A stretch of 64,000 nucleotides of DNA, from NCBI RefSeq assembly GCF_007754155.1, contig NZ_CP037423.1, positions 186,001 through 250,000 on the forward strand, in the 5' to 3' direction. Every line of letters starts with the position of its first letter. The first letter of the stretch is position 1. The notes under the pieces are model-generated. The model saw nothing but the letters and a program-made list of their open reading frames with translations. It was not told where the DNA came from and did not search any database. Both the position numbers and the translations under genes were made by a program. Positions 10,063-48,984 of the stretch are shown one piece after another. This DNA is from Stieleria neptunia (GTDB lineage Bacteria > Planctomycetota > Planctomycetia > Pirellulales > Pirellulaceae).

Positions 10063-10090
10063 ACGTCTGTTCCGCAGGCGGATGCCCAGG

Positions 10091-10225
10091 CAACGCTGTG
10101 AAGCATTTGTTTGCGGTAGGGCGCGAGCCCTCCGGTGTTTCGGCAAAGATGTAGAACCGGAGGGCTCGCGCCCTACCGCTAAAACCTCAAGAAACACATG
10201 AGGGAAAAGGCTTCACCGCGCTAAC
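10091..10225. repeat. REP-like palindromic element, family 1 copy A
   Basis: The inner arms 10113-10136 and 10156-10179 are a perfect 24-base inverted repeat containing GGGCGCGAGCCCTCCGG and its complement. They are flanked by CAACGCTGTGAAGC on the left and a degenerate complement (GGCTTCACCGCG) on the right. Related copies occur at 28590-28785 and 32034-32164. It fills most of the 10063-10301 intergenic space. Confidence 0.85.
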
Positions 10226-14038: not shown

Positions 14039-14224
14039 CCCCCGGGGACACACCCCGGATCACCCGATCCCCCGGGGACAGACCCCGATGGTCCGAGATG
14101 GTCCGGGGACAGACCCCGATGATGGTCCGGGGACAGACCCCGATGGTCCGGGGACAGACCCCGATGGTCCGGGGACAGACCCCGATGGTCCGGGGACAGA
14201 CCCCGATGGTTTGGGGACACGTGC
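14039..14224. repeat. GGGGACAGACCCC palindrome array 1
   Basis: Six perfect copies of GGGGACAGACCCC at 14074, 14105, 14129, 14150, 14171 and 14192, preceded by a variant (GGGGACACACCCC at 14044) and ended by a truncated copy at 14213. The regular spacing is 21 bases with spacer GATGGTCC. Each unit is an inverted repeat (GGGG/CCCC) around ACAGA. It occupies the middle of the 13890-14418 intergenic space; long open frames through it are artefacts of the period. Confidence 0.92.
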
Positions 14225-14418
14225 GGACCACGTCCAATCAGGGACCGCATGCACCGCCGGGCAGTGCCACACACCTCCGGGTCCAAATCCCCTCTCCTCT
14301 GGTTTATCCCCTGGAACATTGGAATCTCAGCACAAACGAAAGGAATCAAGCCATGCTATATTCTATCGAATCGTCTGATTGCAATCATTGTCTAATTTAA
14401 TCGCCGATCGAGGTCACC

Positions 14419-15183
14419 GTGATAGATTGGCTTAAGTCGTTGTTCTCCGGTCGGGAAGGGTGCGATCCTGAGCCAGATGATCTGTGGAACGCCATGGAAT
14501 CGATGGATCCACGCAACTCTCTCGCTCGACTTCGTCAGTTGAAGTTGGATTCGAAGCAATTTCCGGTCGTCAAAAGATTACTCGACGGCACGCTTTCTCC
14601 GGCTGATTGCCCTGGCGTCACCGACTGGTGTCTTGCACAAGCAGTGAATCCAACTGGAATGGACGGGCTGGGCTACGCCTTGCAACTTGCTCTTAAGAGT
14701 TCCGGCACACTCTATGTCATTCCAAAAGGTCAAAGTTTTCCAGCCGCAATGCTGCCAAAATTTGTCAGTCCAGACCAGTTGACCATTGTCGTTAACCGCG
14801 CGGGTGGCACTCCGGTCATTATCACATCGCTGGATGAGTACCTTTCGAGCAGCGACATTGTTGATTACTCGTTGGAAACCTTGACGCCGTCAAAATTGCG
14901 TCGACGACTGCCTCGTCAACCGGAGATCACTCGTGATCGCAAGGTCACTCCAAGCATCACGATTGAAAGAACCACTAATGATCAGGATCGACTGCTGGAA
15001 CCGTTGGAGTTGAAGGATCTGGTCGACGCGATCAACCGAGAACTGGACTACAATCTGACACCGGACCAGCTACCGGAGGTTTCGCAACCTATCGACCAGT
15101 TAGGTCTCTACAATTTTGATGTCCAAATCGATCCCTCGAACAAAACGAAGATCAACGTCTGGGTTGTTCCGTCTGTGGATTAG
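14419..15183 (+). CDS. Hypothetical protein between two repeat arrays
   Basis: 254 residues from a GTG start, with GAGG 7 bases upstream. No signal peptide, membrane span or known domain was seen. The C-terminal half has a highly charged linker (RRRLPRQPEITRDRK) and a predicted alpha/beta ending (LYNFDVQIDPSNKTKINVWVV). Base use differs from neighbours: it is less GC-rich with more AT-ending codons. It is enclosed by GGGGACAGACCCC arrays on both sides, so transfer or capture as cargo is possible. Function cannot be assigned. Confidence 0.65.
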   Translation: MIDWLKSLFSGREGCDPEPDDLWNAMESMDPRNSLARLRQLKLDSKQFPVVKRLLDGTLSPADCPGVTDWCLAQAVNPTGMDGLGYALQLALKSSGTLYVIPKGQSFPAAMLPKFVSPDQLTIVVNRAGGTPVIITSLDEYLSSSDIVDYSLETLTPSKLRRRLPRQPEITRDRKVTPSITIERTTNDQDRLLEPLELKDLVDAINRELDYNLTPDQLPEVSQPIDQLGLYNFDVQIDPSNKTKINVWVVPSVD

Positions 15184-15251
15184 GATCGAGAACCAAGCAT
15201 CATCCGCATCAGCACGGTCTGTCTCCGACGATACGGAATCATCAATCACCC

Positions 15252-15348
15252 GGGGACAGACCCCGATGGCACGGGGACAGACCCCGATGGCACGGGGACA
15301 GACCCCGATGGCACGGGGACAGACCCCGATGGCACGGGGACAGACCCC
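15252..15348. repeat. GGGGACAGACCCC palindrome array 2
   Basis: Five perfect copies at 15252, 15273, 15294, 15315 and 15336 with an exact 21-base period and spacer GATGGCAC. The orientation is the same as array 1. It lies 300 bases from the 3' end of the RAYT-like gene and 70 bases after the hypothetical gene. The remaining part of 15184-15648 has no gene I can support. Confidence 0.93.
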
Positions 15349-15648
15349 GATGGCACATCTGTTCAGTCGATTTTGGTTTGGAGTCAACGAAAAGGGCTGT
15401 CGAACCACTCGACCTGCGCCGCGGGCGCATTTCCACTGGGGAGTTCCGCGTCAATGGATCGTTCGCCGGGTCACTGAAGATGACGAGTCCGAAATTTTCT
15501 CGCCGATGACCAGTGGCCCGTCAATTTGGGCACCTAGCTGATACGACGCTTGCATTGCTTCCCAGCGGTCACATCGTGCTTTCCAGGCGCGACGCTCAGC
15601 AACGTGGCTTCGATTCCTTTGAGGGGGATCGTTGGAAGGCGGGGATCG

Positions 15649-16752
15649 CTAAGCCGCTTGCCCGAATAGGTCGCGGGCTTGCTTGGGAACGTAGAAACGA
15701 CGCCCGGTCTGCTTGGTCCGCTGGGCATCGAGACGCTCCGGACGGCCCGCGATGGTGGAAAACAGGCTGCCGAAGTCTGCGACGAGCGACAACCAAAGCG
15801 TCGGCGATAATCCAAGACGTTCCAAGATCGGCGGATGGCCTTCGGGCGTGCTGCCTCGCTTGCCCGGAGCCAAGTGGCGAGCGCTCCAGTCCAACAGCTC
15901 CAAGTACTCTTCCTCGCTCATTGCCAGGAAGCCTTTGTCACTACAGCGGGCGTTCGTCTTGCTCGGCTGCGGTCCAGCTGGGGCGGTCCCCTCGTGAAGA
16001 TTCACTGGCGAAAGAAAGGCGTCCCCGCGGCGAGCTTGCGGATCGGCGGCTTGAGTTGCGCCATCGGCCGACGCTTTCGAATCGCCGTGTGGAGCTTGTT
16101 GCGCTGCCTGGACCACTTCGACGCGAAGTTGTCCCGATGAATGGTCGCTCAACTCCACCGTTTCCGCGATGCACGCCCGGATCAGATTCAGATCGACATA
16201 GACAGAACAGGCCAAAACAGCCTCTTCGTCGACCAGCGGAATCGCTTTGAAGCGTTGTTCGAAGAAATGCCCCGTTGTCTCGTCTTCCTTGTTGGCACGC
16301 TGAGCAATTTGCTGATTCAACAGACGCATCCACCAGGAGATATTGCTCAGCCGCACTCGGATCTCGGCGAGTTTTTCGGGGGATTGGCGAATGCGATCCA
16401 GTTCCGACTGTGACGGTGTCATCGGGTTGCCCTCGGCATCCTTTCGTTCAGGGCAGATCAACAGCCAGCGACGGGCCACTTCGGTGTCATCCCATGTTGC
16501 CACGACATCGGGCCGAGAACGCAGCATCAGGTGGAAGTGGTTGGAGAGAATGACGTAGGACAGCAAGTCGATCCCGAAACCTGCCGCAAAGCGTTTCAGG
16601 TACTCTTCGATCCAAACTTTGCGGTAATCGTAATTCTTTCCCGAGATCGGATCATCGCCGAAAAGCCAGCACGCCCGTGTGGTCCGGCTGATCACGTGAG
16701 AGATTTGAACGTCGTTTGGGTCCACCACTTCGGAACGAATGGATCTTGCCAT
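15649..16752 (-). CDS. REP-associated tyrosine transposase-like (RAYT, IS200/IS605 Y1 family) protein
   Basis: 367 residues. The HUH metal motif is His72-Phe-His74 in YVILSNHFHLMLR, preceded by a ferredoxin-like N-terminus (ISHVISRTTRACWLFGDD) and followed by the usual GHFFEQRF and YVDLNLIRA blocks (residues 161-193). The residue aligned by eye with the catalytic Tyr (normally within NRRYARRFN) is Ile149 (NQQIAQRAN). The C-terminal 160 residues are a family-specific extension. RAYTs mobilise or maintain short palindromes near them. Three bases-pure palindrome arrays flank it at 15252 and 16920 in opposite orientation. Its activity is uncertain because of the Tyr position. Confidence 0.8.
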   Translation of the reverse strand: MARSIRSEVVDPNDVQISHVISRTTRACWLFGDDPISGKNYDYRKVWIEEYLKRFAAGFGIDLLSYVILSNHFHLMLRSRPDVVATWDDTEVARRWLLICPERKDAEGNPMTPSQSELDRIRQSPEKLAEIRVRLSNISWWMRLLNQQIAQRANKEDETTGHFFEQRFKAIPLVDEEAVLACSVYVDLNLIRACIAETVELSDHSSGQLRVEVVQAAQQAPHGDSKASADGATQAADPQARRGDAFLSPVNLHEGTAPAGPQPSKTNARCSDKGFLAMSEEEYLELLDWSARHLAPGKRGSTPEGHPPILERLGLSPTLWLSLVADFGSLFSTIAGRPERLDAQRTKQTGRRFYVPKQARDLFGQAA

Positions 16753-16919
16753 CGCAGAGTCTCCACCACAACTCGTTTCTGGAAACTGCTGCGGGTCTGA
16801 GGATCTTTCTCGACCATTCGCAGCGAAAAAACGAGTGATCTTTCACTCTGCCTGACTACGGTCATTCCACCCGACTGGAGGCGTCAAGTCAAGTTGATTT
16901 GTGGGCGTTTTTCCAAGAC

Positions 16920-16982
16920 GGGGTCTGTCCCCGGGTGAGCGTCCAGGCGGGGTCTGTCCCCGAGTGAGTGGGGTCTGTCCCC
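16920..16982. repeat. GGGGTCTGTCCCC palindrome array 3 (opposite orientation)
   Basis: Three copies of GGGGTCTGTCCCC at 16920, 16949 and 16970; the last pair is 21 bases apart with spacer GAGTGAGT. This is the reverse complement of arrays 1 and 2, so the RAYT-like gene is flanked by the palindrome in inverted orientation. It lies in the 16753-17085 space between the RAYT and sialidase starts. Confidence 0.92.
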
Positions 16983-17085
16983 GAGTGAGTGTCGGTTTTG
17001 TTACAGTTGGCGAGTCTCCTGATCCGTCATGATTGTCAAAAACGTGCCCTTGCGTTGCAGCGGGTGCAGATCCACTGAGCTGTTT

Positions 17086-18225
17086 ATGAAGCATTTTGTT
17101 TTTATTGCCGTGGTCGTCACGGCAACCGTCACCGCTGCGATTGCGGGGGATGAAGTCGCCCAGCACGCTGTCGCACTTCGGCTTCCATCGACGCCGTCAA
17201 ACCCGCGTAACAGCGAAGGCGATTTTATTCGGCTCAATGACGGTCGCATCCTGTTCGTGTACACGCATTTCACCGGTGGCGGTGGCGACCATTCGTCCGC
17301 CCATCTTGCCGGACGCTATTCCTTTGACGGCGGCAAGTCGTGGGACGACATCGACACTCCGGTTTTGGAAAGCGATGCAAATTTGAACATCATGTCGGTG
17401 TCACTGTTGCGTTTGGCCGATGGTCGGATTGCGCTGTTTTATCTCAGAAAAGATTCGCTGCAGGATTGCCGGCCGGTGGTTCGGTTCAGCGATGACGAGG
17501 CGGCGACATGGAGTCAGCCGAGGGAAATCGTCCCTGATTCCCAGATCGGATATTACGTCTTGAATAACGATCGCGTGATCCAATTGCGTGACGGACGGTT
17601 AGTCGTCCCGCTCGCGCTGCATCACACGCCGGATCAAAAGAAGCCCGATTGGACCGGAAGGGTGCTGTGTTGTCTGAGCGATGACGCGGGAAAGTCGTGG
17701 CGGCGGAGCAAGAGTATCTTGCAGGCCCATGACCAGCGCAGCGGCAAACGTCTGATCGCGCAAGAACCAGGCGTCGTCGAGCTTCGCGACGGTCGTGTGA
17801 TGATGTTTGTACGCTCGAATGCGGGCAGCCAATTGCTGAGCCATTCGCGCGACGGCGGAGCAACCTGGACGCCACTGGTGCCATCGACGCTTCACTCACC
17901 GACGTCTCCGGCGACCATCGAACGCATTCCCCAGAGCGATACGCTGGTCTGTGTGTGGAACGACCATGCAAAAATATCGCCCGAGTTGCGCGGCAAACGG
18001 ACTCCGCTCTCGCTGGCCACCAGTGACGACGAGGGGATGACGTGGCGACCCTCAATCACACTGTTTGACAGTCCCGATGGCTGGTATTGCTACACTGCGA
18101 TCGAGTTCACAGAGGACGCGATCCTGCTCGGGCATTGCGGCGGTGATCGCACGAAAAACAATGGCCTGGCCGAATCGCAGATCACACGCGTGCGATGGAG
18201 CGATCTCGGGGACGTGCGCCCGTGA
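17086..18225 (+). CDS. Secreted sialidase / BNR-repeat (exo-alpha-sialidase-like) protein
   Basis: 379 residues. The signal peptide is FVFIAVVVTATVTAAIA, cut near Ala-Gly. The body is a six-bladed beta-propeller with at least five Asp boxes of the type SxDxGxxW: SFDGGKSW, SDDEAATW, SDDAGKSW, SRDGGATW and SDDEGMTW. It carries conserved NxxxGRxxxF strands such as RLADGRIALFYLR. Family proteins cleave or bind sialic acid-like or sulfated sugars; a specific substrate is not shown. The start at 17086 begins the signal peptide; a longer frame begins at 17029. Array 3 lies upstream and array 4 downstream. Confidence 0.85.
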   Translation: MKHFVFIAVVVTATVTAAIAGDEVAQHAVALRLPSTPSNPRNSEGDFIRLNDGRILFVYTHFTGGGGDHSSAHLAGRYSFDGGKSWDDIDTPVLESDANLNIMSVSLLRLADGRIALFYLRKDSLQDCRPVVRFSDDEAATWSQPREIVPDSQIGYYVLNNDRVIQLRDGRLVVPLALHHTPDQKKPDWTGRVLCCLSDDAGKSWRRSKSILQAHDQRSGKRLIAQEPGVVELRDGRVMMFVRSNAGSQLLSHSRDGGATWTPLVPSTLHSPTSPATIERIPQSDTLVCVWNDHAKISPELRGKRTPLSLATSDDEGMTWRPSITLFDSPDGWYCYTAIEFTEDAILLGHCGGDRTKNNGLAESQITRVRWSDLGDVRP

Positions 18226-18448
18226 CTGATCCGCCAATCACTCGGTCAGGCCGCTGGGCTTAGGCAGACCGCTATCCTTGTCGTCTGCCGCAACTCATTC
18301 TTCGGGTAGGGCGTAGTGGATCTTGTCAAAGATCCCAAGCAGAAGGATCTTTGACTAGGTCCACCACTCGAAAACTGAGCCGCGACGGAATCCTGATATT
18401 GTCCGTGGTGATTCCTTTGCTTGCATCCAAGCCATCGCATTAGGCATT

Positions 18449-18803
18449 GGGGGCTGTCCCCGGCGGTTGGGGGCTGTCCCCGGCGGTTGGGGTCTGTCCC
18501 CGGCGGTTGGGGTCTGTTCCCGGCGGTTGGGGTCTGTCCCCGGCGGTTGGGGTCTGTCCCCGGCGGTTGGGGTCTGTCCCCGGCGGTTGGGGTCTGTCCC
18601 CGGCGGTTGGGGTCTGTCCCCGGCGGTTGGGGTCTGTCCCCGGCGGTTGGGGTCTGTCCCCGGCGGTTGGGGTCTGTCCCCGGCGGTTGGGGTCTGTCCC
18701 CGGTGGTTTGGGGTCTGTCCCCGGTGGTTGGGGTCTGTCCCCGGTGGTTGGGGTCTGTCCCCGGTGGTTGGGGTCTGTCCCCGGTGGTTTGGGGTCTGTC
18801 CCC
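18449..18803. repeat. GGGGTCTGTCCCC palindrome array 4, 18 units
   Basis: Eighteen units with a 20-base period from 18449 to 18803. The first two have GGGGCTGTCCCC, the fourth has a T change, and the rest are GGGGTCTGTCCCC. The spacer is CGGCGGTT in units 1-13 and CGGTGGTT in units 14-17, and two one-base insertions make TTT. The sharp change of spacer at about 18700 suggests growth by duplication from two founder variants. The space 18226-18813 has no gene apart from this array. Confidence 0.95.
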
Positions 18804-18813
18804 GGTGAGTTGG

Positions 18814-20229
18814 TTAGTTTTGGGGGGGTGGGTGGTTGATGCGTCGCAGGTCGTCGATGAGTTGTTGGTGCATTTGGGCTTTCCGCGCGTCATCGGGCAT
18901 GCGGAGGATCGCCGCGGGATGCCATGTGGCCATCGTGCGCTCGCACCAATCGGTTGCGCGGATTTCGCCGCGGTGCTTGGAGACTTGAAAGTCACGTCCG
19001 AAGAGTGCTTGCGATGACGTTGCTCCCAAACAGAGAATCGCAACGGGCTGGACCAGTGCCAGTTCCGCTTCTAACCAGGGCCGACAGGCATAGACTTCAC
19101 GTGCGTTCGGTTTTTGGTGCAATCGACGTTTGCCGCGGGACGTCGTCGCTTCGGTGAATTTGAAATGCTTGACCACGTTGGTCAGATAAACGTCATTGCG
19201 GCGGATCCCGGCCCGTTTCAGGGCATCATCGAGCAGCTTGCCGGCCGAGCCGACGAAGGGCCGCCCCTCCAGATCCTCGCGGTCCCCCGGTTGTTCACCC
19301 ACCAACACGATCCTTGCATCCCGACTCCCTTCGCCGAACACGGGCTGTGTCGCGTGGCGGTGTAGATCGCACGCTCGGCAACCGCCCACCGCGGTACGCA
19401 ACGATTCCAAATCGATTCGCTCGGGCATGTAGTGCGTCGCCGTCTCGGCAAAGCCCTCGTTCTGATCCACCATCGCAGCCACCCGCTCGGGAGCGGCTTG
19501 CAACAGGTCGTCGATCAGCGAGGTTTCCGGCAGCGTCGGCCAATGACGCACCGGCATTTCCCGTTTCATCGTGTCGACTTTGACCCGCGCCGGGTTGAAG
19601 ATCGATGCGTAATACGTTTTCCAAAGTTCCTCGAGCGCATCATCATCCGGGGCGTCGCTGACCGGCACGCCGGGGCCGTACCGCAGTGACGATTGGTCCC
19701 AGGTCACCGACTCGTCGGGCGTGAGGATCGACCACTTCATGCCGCTGAATCGGCGGCTGAAAAACGGAGCGGCCAAGCGGACGATACGATGATCCGGCCG
19801 GTGCCATGCGACGTAGACCTCTTCGTCGCCTGAATCGATCACTTTGCGAAACCGCACGAACGCCTTCATTTTATGAACGTCTCGCGTGACCGCTTTCCGC
19901 ATCGTCGTCAGCTCGTGAACATCATCGTCGGTCGTGATCTGCAACAGATGACGTTCCCCGCGCACCAGACGCCACAAGGTTCGGTAGAGCAATGACCAAC
20001 GCGTCCCGGCGCGGTGACAGGCGACGGTCTTGGCCAGTTCCAAAAACGCTTTGGGGACGGTGAAGGCAGTCGGTGTCGCAGGGAACTCCGTGTCGTCATT
20101 TGAATCGAACAAGGAATGTTGCTCGTCGTCAGCCATCCAGGCCACCTGCTCCGGCGGCACGTCGGCGGTAAGCAATCGTCGCGCCGTGACTCGCCATTGG
20201 TCGAACGTCTGAACCTTCACAAATCGCAT
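18814..20229 (-). CDS. UdgX-type uracil-DNA glycosylase fused to DUF4130-like N-terminal domain
   Basis: 471 residues. Residues 1-225 match the putative DNA-metabolism protein family (TIGR03915/DUF4130 type), including the FSGMKWSILTPDESVTWD block. Residues about 275-460 are a family-4/UdgX-like glycosylase: iron-sulfur cysteines C284/C287, active-site GEQPGDREDLEGRPFVG (311-327), and the UdgX-specific loop KRRLHQKP (367-374) whose His371 corresponds to the His that forms a covalent bond to the uracil site in UdgX. It is expected to bind or excise uracil from DNA. The radical SAM gene ends 9 bases upstream on the same strand, and the pair is a known genomic association. Confidence 0.88.
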   Translation of the reverse strand: MRFVKVQTFDQWRVTARRLLTADVPPEQVAWMADDEQHSLFDSNDDTEFPATPTAFTVPKAFLELAKTVACHRAGTRWSLLYRTLWRLVRGERHLLQITTDDDVHELTTMRKAVTRDVHKMKAFVRFRKVIDSGDEEVYVAWHRPDHRIVRLAAPFFSRRFSGMKWSILTPDESVTWDQSSLRYGPGVPVSDAPDDDALEELWKTYYASIFNPARVKVDTMKREMPVRHWPTLPETSLIDDLLQAAPERVAAMVDQNEGFAETATHYMPERIDLESLRTAVGGCRACDLHRHATQPVFGEGSRDARIVLVGEQPGDREDLEGRPFVGSAGKLLDDALKRAGIRRNDVYLTNVVKHFKFTEATTSRGKRRLHQKPNAREVYACRPWLEAELALVQPVAILCLGATSSQALFGRDFQVSKHRGEIRATDWCERTMATWHPAAILRMPDDARKAQMHQQLIDDLRRINHPPPQN

Positions 20230-20238
20230 GACGCGAAC

Positions 20239-21492
20239 TTAGACCTCTCCGGTCAGGGCGGATTGACGAGTGTCGAACAACATCAGCTGTTTGTGTTTCG
20301 GTTGTGCGCGGCCGCGAAGATCGGACTTGTCCAGGTTGGCGAGTTCGGGATTGTGGTCCGCGGTCGAGACAAAGTACTTGGCTCGGTTCCAAGCGACTCG
20401 CAGCTTTTTGAGGTCTTCGCGACGCACGGTCTTGTGTCTGCGAATGCTCAAAATGCGTTTGACGCTTCGCGCTCCGATGCCGGGAATCCGCAACAGCTCT
20501 TCTCGGCTCGCTCGGTTGACATCCACCGGAAAGAAATGCCGATTGGCGAGAGCCCAGGCCAGTTTCGGATCGATGTCCAGCGAAAGGTTCTGATCGGCCT
20601 CGGCAACAATTTCACTCGCATCGAAACCATAAAACCGCATCAACCAATCGGCTTGATAAAGTCGATGCTCGCGGACCAGCGGGGGTGATTGGCCGGGCAA
20701 TCGGGCATCGGCGTGCGGGATGGGGCTGTAGGCCGAATAATAGACGCGACGGAGGTTCTGGCCGTCGTAGAGCTGAGCAGCCGTCTTCAAAATCTCGACG
20801 TCCGGTGTGTCCGTCGCCCCGACGATCATCTGTGTGCTTTGCCCGGCCGGTGCGAAGCTTGGCGGATGAAGCCCCGCTTTCTGATCGTCTTGGGTTTCGT
20901 CGATCTTTTGCCGAATCCCCTGCATCGCGTCGACGATTTCAGGTTTCTTCTTCTCTGGAGCAAGCTTGTGAAGGTCGCCTTCGGTGGGCAGTTCGATGTT
21001 GACGCTCAATCGATCGGCCCACATGCCGGCCTCTTCGATCAGGGGCTGTGACGCGTTGGGGATGGTTTTCAGATGGATGTAGCCGCCGTAGTGTTGTTCG
21101 GTTCGCAATTTCTTCGCAACCGAGATTAGTTGCTCCATCGTGTAATCCGAAGTCTGGATGATGCCTGAGCTGAGGAACAGTCCTTCGATGTAGTTGCGTT
21201 TGTAAAACTCGATCGTCAACGAGACCACTTCGTCGACGGAGAATCGAGCCCGCGGCGTGTCGCTGGAGATCCGATTGACGCAATATTGGCAATCGTAGAT
21301 GCAGTAATTCGTCAGCAGGACTTTCAGCAACGAGATGCATCGCCCGTCCGGCGTGTAGCTGTGGCAGATCCCCATTCCCTCGGTGCTGCCGATCTTGCTG
21401 CCGGGCCGAGTGGACTTGGAGCCGCTGCTGGCGCAGGAGGCATCGTATTTGGCCGCGTCGGCGAGAATCGCAAGTTTGTCACGAACGTCCAT
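20239..21492 (-). CDS. Radical SAM putative DNA modification/repair protein (TIGR03916-like)
   Basis: 417 residues. The radical SAM cluster motif is C64xxxC68xxC71 in NYCIYDCQYCVNR. A helix-hairpin-helix block lies near residues 325-350 (NRASREELLRIPGIGARSV), which binds DNA. The sequence matches the 'putative DNA modification/repair radical SAM protein' family that accompanies the UdgX/DUF4130 fusion. It probably performs a radical reaction on damaged DNA or a DNA-bound substrate; the chemistry is not known. The gene starts the two-gene operon with the UdgX fusion. Confidence 0.88.
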   Translation of the reverse strand: MDVRDKLAILADAAKYDASCASSGSKSTRPGSKIGSTEGMGICHSYTPDGRCISLLKVLLTNYCIYDCQYCVNRISSDTPRARFSVDEVVSLTIEFYKRNYIEGLFLSSGIIQTSDYTMEQLISVAKKLRTEQHYGGYIHLKTIPNASQPLIEEAGMWADRLSVNIELPTEGDLHKLAPEKKKPEIVDAMQGIRQKIDETQDDQKAGLHPPSFAPAGQSTQMIVGATDTPDVEILKTAAQLYDGQNLRRVYYSAYSPIPHADARLPGQSPPLVREHRLYQADWLMRFYGFDASEIVAEADQNLSLDIDPKLAWALANRHFFPVDVNRASREELLRIPGIGARSVKRILSIRRHKTVRREDLKKLRVAWNRAKYFVSTADHNPELANLDKSDLRGRAQPKHKQLMLFDTRQSALTGEV

Positions 21493-48656: not shown

Positions 48657-48984
48657 TGCTTGTTGCTCCCCAATTGGGTGTAGAACGAATTGGGGTCTAT
48701 CCGCGGATATCGTCGATGTCCAGATGTATATTGAAATCGGGTGAAAGGGTATCCGTCGGCGAACGAACTGCGATCGATCTGCGCATCCGCAGGATCGGGG
48801 ATCCAGCGGGCGCCCGAACATTGTCGGGCCTCGGGTGGGTCGATCGCAGTACTGGATTAGAGCGGATCCTGTCAGAGGGTTCCAGCTTTTTTAGTGCCAG
48901 GTGTGGACTCGCGGAAAGCGAGCCATCGAAGCCCAGCGGGCCGACAGAGTGTTTGCCGAGCCCGTCAGGGCCCGGTCGCCAACG

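Follow-up and report, generated by a model that had tools for sequence, protein, structure and literature searches.

A HuH-Y1 transposase gene amid palindrome arrays in Stieleria neptunia, and inverted end motifs beside its planctomycete relatives

A locus of Stieleria neptunia contains a gene for a HuH-Y1 transposase amid four arrays of a 13-nt palindrome, GGGGACAGACCCC. The locus lies at positions 14,039-18,803 of the stretch that we analysed (the window, 64,000 nt, positions 186,001-250,000 of contig NZ_CP037423.1 in assembly GCF_007754155.1), and the gene, at 15649-16752 on the minus strand, encodes 367 amino acids. Array 1 (14044-14204, plus strand) has seven copies of the motif, six exact and one with one mismatch, at spacings of 21-31 bp. 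Array 2 (15252-15348, plus strand), downstream of the gene and antisense to it, has five exact copies spaced 21 bp apart. On the other side, array 3 (16920-16982, minus strand) lies upstream of the gene, in sense, with three exact copies spaced 29 and 21 bp, and array 4 (18449-18803, minus strand) has 18 copies, 15 of them exact and three with one mismatch, with a period of 20-21 bp. The total of 33 copies (29 exact, four with one mismatch) bears out an earlier note on this DNA, which had counted about 32 in four clusters within 4.8 kb. Outside the arrays, the window has a single stray site with two mismatches, at 48692; shuffled windows, searched with up to two mismatches, gave a mean of 1.9 matches and at most 5. 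Each array unit consists of the 13-mer and a spacer, mostly of 7-8 nt. The 13-mer is nearly constant and the spacer is specific to the array (GATGGTCC, GATGGCAC in array 2, ACTCACTC, and AACCACC/AACCGCC). The mirrored orientation that the earlier note described, with left arrays on the plus strand and right arrays on the minus strand, is real in the window, since the gene sits between arrays 2 and 3. The genome's two remaining close copies of the gene depart from this arrangement: judged by exact copies, the flanks are sense and sense at one (L043), and antisense and antisense at the other (L044).

The predicted protein has weak matches to Y1_Tnp and REP_Tyr_transpos; a Pfam scan with E up to 1 returned Y1_Tnp alone, and thus no helix-turn-helix (HTH) or DnaA-like C-terminal domain of the kind found in TIRYT proteins. 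An AlphaFold2 model built from 108 sequences reached pLDDT 88.2 and pTM 0.89 (a model from 22 sequences, with pLDDT 54.3, was not usable). When this model was compared with PDB folds, the first match and the only one below E 0.001 was 4er8, the REP-associated tyrosine transposase (RAYT; REP, repetitive extragenic palindrome) of E. coli (E 2.5e-4, TM 0.65 by target length), followed by the ISDra2, Sulfolobus and IS608 transposases. A profile search of PDB sequences with the protein gave nothing meaningful (best E 0.63), and a PHROGs search gave no match. Residues H72, H74, Y185 and N189 are invariant across the 108 homologous sequences. By arithmetic from the start codon, the HuH motif NHFH (residues 71-74) is encoded at 16531-16542, and the presumed catalytic tyrosine Y185, in YVDLN, at 16198-16200, both on the minus strand.

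Six gammaproteobacterial homologues (320-364 aa, from Alteromonadales and Vibrio, five of them from the former) have NHxH at 70 and YVDLNP at 183, aligned with NHFH 71 and YVDLN 185 of the window protein, and in 13 of 14 plasmid records the homology to proteins of 320-325 aa spans 91-96% of the query. In the excerpts of Quentin et al. 2018 (PMC6006769) considered here, subclass 2.3 of the TnpAY1 proteins has a median length of 325 aa, NHYH and YVDLNP motifs, a HuH-Y distance of 110, core insertions of 10 and 55 aa, and a subclass-specific C-terminal domain. It occurs in Chromatiales and Alteromonadales, and is described without REP-like flanks. The window protein appears to fit this subclass, judged against the published description rather than the published profiles: it has NHxH and YVDLN and a HuH-Y distance of 113-114 against the median of 110, although it is longer and has L instead of the final P of YVDLNP (YVDLNL).

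The motif is strongly associated with close copies of this gene. In the S. neptunia genome, a single contig of 10,975,817 bp, GGGGACAGACCCC occurs 231 times in exact form, in at least 16 clusters; we positioned 220 of these copies and left 11 unplaced. A reversed-pattern control does not occur. Among the 12 hits of the window protein's family in this genome, the three close ones (100, 88 and 87% identity) are accompanied by 29, 15 and 39 exact copies, all within 5 kb. The nine remaining hits (at most 63% identity, some partial) have no copy in 20 kb, and neither have four control stretches of the genome. Thus 83 of the 231 copies fall in about 0.3% of the genome, an enrichment within 5 kb of the RAYT-like gene that the earlier note had proposed as a test.

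Across 117 genomes, the motif is present in 20. The six Stieleria genomes with a protein at least 69% identical have 231, 127, 82, 79, 69 and 58 copies, and the other eight have 0, 0, 0, 3, 5, 6, 8 and 74. The expectation that copies would be fewer where the RAYT is lacking therefore held in seven of these eight genomes (0-8 copies), but failed in G004, whose 74 copies either weigh against a strict dependence on the gene or reflect a gene that was lost. The period is close to 117 bp in some of the G004 arrays, such as C45:106881-107845 and C113:89124-90216. Outside Stieleria, GGGGACAGACCCC occurs in nine of 103 genomes, as one copy in each of six; G034 has 39. At two loci of G034 (L129 and L130, 92% alike over 3.1 kb), the motif lies downstream of a Y1 gene that is only very distantly related, with 26% identity across 211 residues. 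G004 excepted, the repeats are dispersed and specific to the transposase, with 231 copies and a motif that belongs to one subfamily, as is expected of a REPtron, the system formed by a RAYT and its REPs.

We then compared the surroundings of related genes, taking the best 80 of 288 loci, all in planctomycete records (two are labelled only 'bacterium'). These relatives share a motif, RGGGACA followed by a 3′ half specific to the subfamily, which points inward at both ends of the gene. At 48-63% protein identity, the equivalent positions read GGGGACACGGCACC, GGGGACAGAGCACC, GGGGACACAGCACT, TAGGGACAGAGCAT, GGGGACAGACCTCA and the like. For the 72 of the 80 loci that have at least 400 bp on a side, GGGACA is found upstream in sense orientation in 66 and in antisense in 19, and downstream in antisense in 60 and in sense in 13; its density near the genes is about 12 times that beyond 2 kb. 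Motif and protein distances are correlated over 58 loci (Mantel r 0.42, with none of 2000 permutations as high; L216 and L232, because of internal stops, and loci with a single copy or none were left aside). As single-stranded DNA, the window motif folds at -5.1 kcal/mol with a C-G closing pair, whereas the motifs of four relatives, at 0 to -1.0 kcal/mol, do not fold.

Orientation also separates the subfamilies. Counted per flank, 55 of the 74 non-palindromic loci (short flanks and partial genes were removed by hand) have 96 canonical and 2 reversed flanks, in contrast to 11 canonical and 8 reversed in the 11 loci of the palindromic subfamily (Fisher P 4e-6, which is only indicative because the loci are related). 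We therefore rejected mirrored orientation as a rule of the palindromic subfamily, in which one or more flanks are reversed or tied at each of L043, L044, L092, L093, L094, L096, L098 and L099. We likewise rejected the idea that the palindrome is what the whole family recognises, as the relatives' motifs are neither palindromic nor, in the four that were folded, able to form a hairpin. Because the motifs of the four relatives do not fold and yet form inverted ends, the conserved feature is the inverted end motif, and the palindrome belongs to one subfamily. In Stieleria paralogues about 40% identical (L046-L050, L147-L149 and L154), a different inverted end word, GGTGCCACCCA, is found.

The inverted ends were also sought in gammaproteobacterial plasmid records (nine of the 14). 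No outstanding shared word was found in L241, L242, L243, L245, L247 and L248; two words do stand in inverted positions, GACACCCA in L246 and L249 and GGACAGAC in L244. A null comparison yields a mean of 8 shared 8-mers, so lone shared words mean little. Since most of these records lack a shared word and the null is this high, a link of the end motif across phyla is no more than suggested.

Evidence of mobility comes from Neorhodopirellula pilleata Pla100 rather than from the window's own subfamily. Eight of nine loci retrieved from this genome (L177, L178, L179, L180, L182, L183, L209 and L223; 54-55% protein identity) are copies of 1440 or 1455 bp with different flanks. Their likeness extends about 6 nt beyond each motif, and A-N-C-Y-T or a close variant precedes GGGGACA on either side. 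The copy at L179 meets an alpha-L-fucosidase frame with a match to positions 116-345 of a 345-position profile, so the first third (115 positions) is missing at the junction. That the copies are nearly identical, sit in different places and have defined ends marks the N. pilleata element as an IS-like mobile element. Positions 10635-10963 of L105 look like an internal-deletion derivative that holds both ends of the element of a further genome, G003.

Elsewhere, paralogous loci mostly have just the gene and short flanks in common. The shared 5′ side often stops at the innermost motif, as in the window and L043 (at 16933), in L116 and L117, and in the G003 set; in the window, the innermost upstream copy (16920-16932, minus strand) is where the DNA common to paralogues ends on the 5′ side (at 16931-16933). 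In some pairs, the shared DNA runs from motif to motif, namely in the window and L044 (15250-16931, array 2 included) and in L111 and L120. Three further Stieleria genomes (G012, G001 and G013) keep the same order of an HDAC-like gene, a gene with a domain of unknown function (DUF), a hypothetical gene, the transposase gene and a UdgX-type gene, and the transposase gene has therefore been inherited vertically at this place. An array occupies the intergenic place of array 1 in all three as well, with differing copy numbers and, in G001, in the opposite orientation. The L043 locus is common to G012; at the corresponding site, G001 and G013 have 445 and 554 bp against about 2.3 kb, without the motif, and are too diverged for ends to be read to the base. 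Within a genome, copies can be closer to each other than to the matching loci of other species: L092 and L093 in G012 (99.3%) and L043 and L044 in S. neptunia (94.5% in DNA). This likeness suggests gene conversion or re-insertion. The two flanks of L044 (G000:C1:4795800-4815799) are about 900 kb apart in G012, and so this copy sits at the joint of a rearrangement.

The arrays have a preferred 5′ boundary. We compared the outermost with the second copy in all runs of the motif that the fetched loci contain, some of which (such as those in L147 and L198) have no relation to the gene. Of the 147 arrays that lie outside the palindromic subfamily, 65 have at least 7 nt in common directly 5′ of the motif, and in 51 of the 147 the shared stretch ends at 7-10 nt. 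With shuffled partners, sharing of at least 7 nt is expected in 0.6 arrays, with a largest value of 4. With six other anchor words as a control, the shared stretch measured 7-10 nt in 2 of 198 cases and 7 nt or more in 8, four of these 8 in one set of six. The 3′ end of the unit is variable, from GGGGACA to far inside the element and up to tandem copies of the whole gene in L141, where the 8 nt CATCAGTT are shared before the motif. Tandem whole transposase units, 96-98% alike, are found in L141 (5364-8259), L142 (130-3009) and L145 (5896-8661). In the 32 arrays of the palindromic subfamily, the spacings are 21 bp (88 times), 20 bp (21 times) and 22 bp (8 times), and a shared 8 nt can be found on either side of the motif.

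The explanation that we consider best as a whole, with a probability of roughly 0.55, is that the window locus is a copy, kept by vertical descent, of a planctomycete element resembling an insertion sequence (IS), which consists of a subclass 2.3-type HuH-Y1 gene and inward-pointing end motifs, and whose arrays grow by nicking 5′ of the motif. Comparison of sequences reveals the association of motif and gene, the inverted ends, the several copies with conserved ends in N. pilleata, the frequent array boundary near -8 and the variable 3′ ends; that the enzyme binds, nicks and copies at the motif is what we infer from them. The enzyme would recognise the end motif and nick about 6-8 nt 5′ of it, and re-copying from the nick, with rejoining at variable 3′ points, would add units of 8-nt flank and motif, so that arrays would grow beside the element. 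In the Stieleria subfamily, the motif would have changed to GGGGACAGACCCC, a hairpin on either strand that would offer the site on both strands; this would explain both the unit of 21 bp and why the orientation rule was lost.

Several observations weigh against this explanation. The upstream sense motif is absent in 6 of 72 loci and the downstream motif in 12 of 72, and since the loci are related, both the Fisher P and the permutations overstate their independence. In S. neptunia, 148 of the 231 copies lie away from the close genes, some as single copies and others in arrays that have no family hit, near 150, 180, 1163, 2441, 4003, 4080, 5525, 5728, 6475, 6581, 8873, 10850 and 10874 kb, and G004 has its 74 copies with a protein just 59% identical, those listed lying away from its RAYT genes. 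Fewer than 7 nt are shared 5′ of the motif in 82 of the 147 arrays, and many of the 32 palindromic arrays have no clear shared flank on either side. The near-identical L092 and L093 do not diverge at a motif, and their comparison did not reveal exact element ends in the window's own subfamily. Nor was an exact empty site read, either in G001 and G013 at the L043 site or for L114, a G003 copy whose flanks were not found in six relatives.

Of the other explanations, the arrays could be ordinary tandem repeats, in which the 13-mer grows by replication slippage or unequal crossing-over at the hairpin and the transposase is not involved. The regular 21-bp steps in several arrays fit this, as do the arrays without a gene at 13 places in S. 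neptunia and in G004. However, the relatives' motifs form arrays without folding, with a 5′ boundary at 7-10 nt and variable 3′ ends, the control anchor words rarely have such a boundary (though they do give 8 of 198 at 7 nt or more), and the motif is close to the gene, so we regard this as unlikely. Somewhat less likely again is the canonical REPtron, which is close to what the earlier note had proposed: the hairpin would be a REP that a domesticated RAYT binds in single-stranded form and spreads. The observation behind that proposal was confirmed, and part of the interpretation is supported. The gene belongs to the RAYT/IS200 HuH-Y1 type, its product resembles the REP-bound RAYT 4er8 in fold, the repeats are enriched near it, the window motif folds into a hairpin, the gene is inherited at a conserved place in G012, G001 and G013, and numerous copies lie away from it. 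On the other hand, the 5′ flanks of the 144 exact copies listed mostly end in C or T, varying by array, rather than in a GT[AG]G foot, and without this foot the window repeat is not a REP as defined. Folding is also confined to one subfamily, the relatives have inverted ends and a multi-copy element, and subclass 2.3 was described without REPs in the excerpts of PMC6006769.

Two further possibilities seem much more remote. The repeated 8 nt could be target-site duplications, made by an integrase that inserts motif-bearing pieces beside existing copies. A shared flank of about 8 nt is just what this would look like, but each piece would have to enter exactly beside an existing motif, and the mobile sequence of N. 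pilleata extends about 6 nt beyond the motif at either end; we consider this improbable. Least probable of all is that the motifs are binding sites of a host protein or regulatory hairpins, with the transposase merely as a neighbour. Although many arrays do lie away from the gene, the motif changes with the transposase subfamily, and of the eight genomes of the genus that lack a close gene, seven have few copies of the 13-mer or none (0-8).

The nearest published arrangement to an IS-like element with inverted end motifs is the TIRtron, in which, in the parts of Di Nocera et al. 2013 (PMC3733652) considered here, TIRYT genes have inverted ends (terminal inverted repeats, TIRs) that share GGGGWSAS. 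We judge it nearest because here, too, a Y1 gene lies between inverted copies of a motif, and GGGGACAG and GGGGACAC fit that consensus; many relatives read GGGGACAT or AGGGACA, one position off. The inverted arrangement is found in the 55 non-palindromic loci and in the window, but not in L043 and L044. According to the same source, some TIRtron end families are also repeated in the genome, in clusters. Unlike the window protein, TIRYTs mostly belong to subclass 2.1 and have HTH-like tails (20 of 26 in PMC6006769, in part), and here the ends form long regular arrays and, in one subfamily, a hairpin motif with free orientation. Against subclass 2.3 as published, an inverted end motif, mostly non-folding, is present in most loci. 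REPtrons are similar in the fold of the enzyme and in having repeats that are specific to the transposase subfamily, enriched nearby and spread over the genome; the differences are that here the GT[AG]G foot is absent, the motif folds in a single subfamily, the ends are inverted and, in N. pilleata, the element is present in eight copies. The IS200/IS605 elements ISDra2 and IS608 share the Y1 fold and, with N. pilleata, the discrete mobile unit; their ends are reportedly hairpins read on one strand (PMC8266576, in part), whereas those described here are inverted copies of one motif.

In the open-licence literature that we searched, we found neither GGGGACAGACCCC nor anything on Stieleria in combination with transposase and repeat. 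The occurrence of GGGGACAG with transposase that we looked at is a PCR primer, and 'Rayt', in the part of a deep-sea planctomycete paper considered, belongs to an author's name. Within that literature, the rule of array growth and the link of subclass 2.3-type genes to inverted ends appear not to be in print.

The other genes at the locus are neighbours of the element. A hypothetical gene (14419-15183, plus strand) lies between arrays 1 and 2, and has an equivalent in the same place in G012, G001 and G013 (76-82% identity). A BNR-repeat sialidase-like gene (17029-18225, plus strand) lies between arrays 3 and 4. The earlier note took the system to enclose this sialidase gene, which is not a general feature: a relative is present at the locus in G001 and G013, and none was found in the fetched stretches of the locus in G012, G005 and G002. 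Beyond array 4 is a pair of genes at 18814-20229 and 20239-21492, one with TIGR03915 and UdgX-type uracil-DNA-binding domains; the second is radical-SAM-like, judging by its sequence alone. A repeat of about 130 bp, unrelated to GGGGACAGACCCC, is found in the window (10089-10223) and in L043 (12198-12331), with dozens of matches across G002, G005 and G012.

It is possible, though we hold this more tentatively than the reading of the locus itself, that the Y1 transposases of subclass 2.3 form a large class, so far overlooked, of HuH elements with inverted ends that amplify their own ends in place, by nicking about 8 nt 5′, re-copying and variable rejoining. If so, a route resembling rolling-circle replication would yield both arrays of 20-bp units and tandem copies of whole genes, and a self-complementary end motif would free the choice of strand and the orientation, such that ends could become arrays that persist on their own. 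An end motif would be supplied for a transposase subclass that was reported without recognisable flanks, the fixed boundary near -8 makes a sharp prediction about nicking, and the TIRtron and REPtron ideas would be linked by a natural series, with end motifs that do not fold at its start and arrays of hairpins at its end. The finding may thus bear on the origin of interspersed repeats in bacteria and on how Y1 enzymes act on them.

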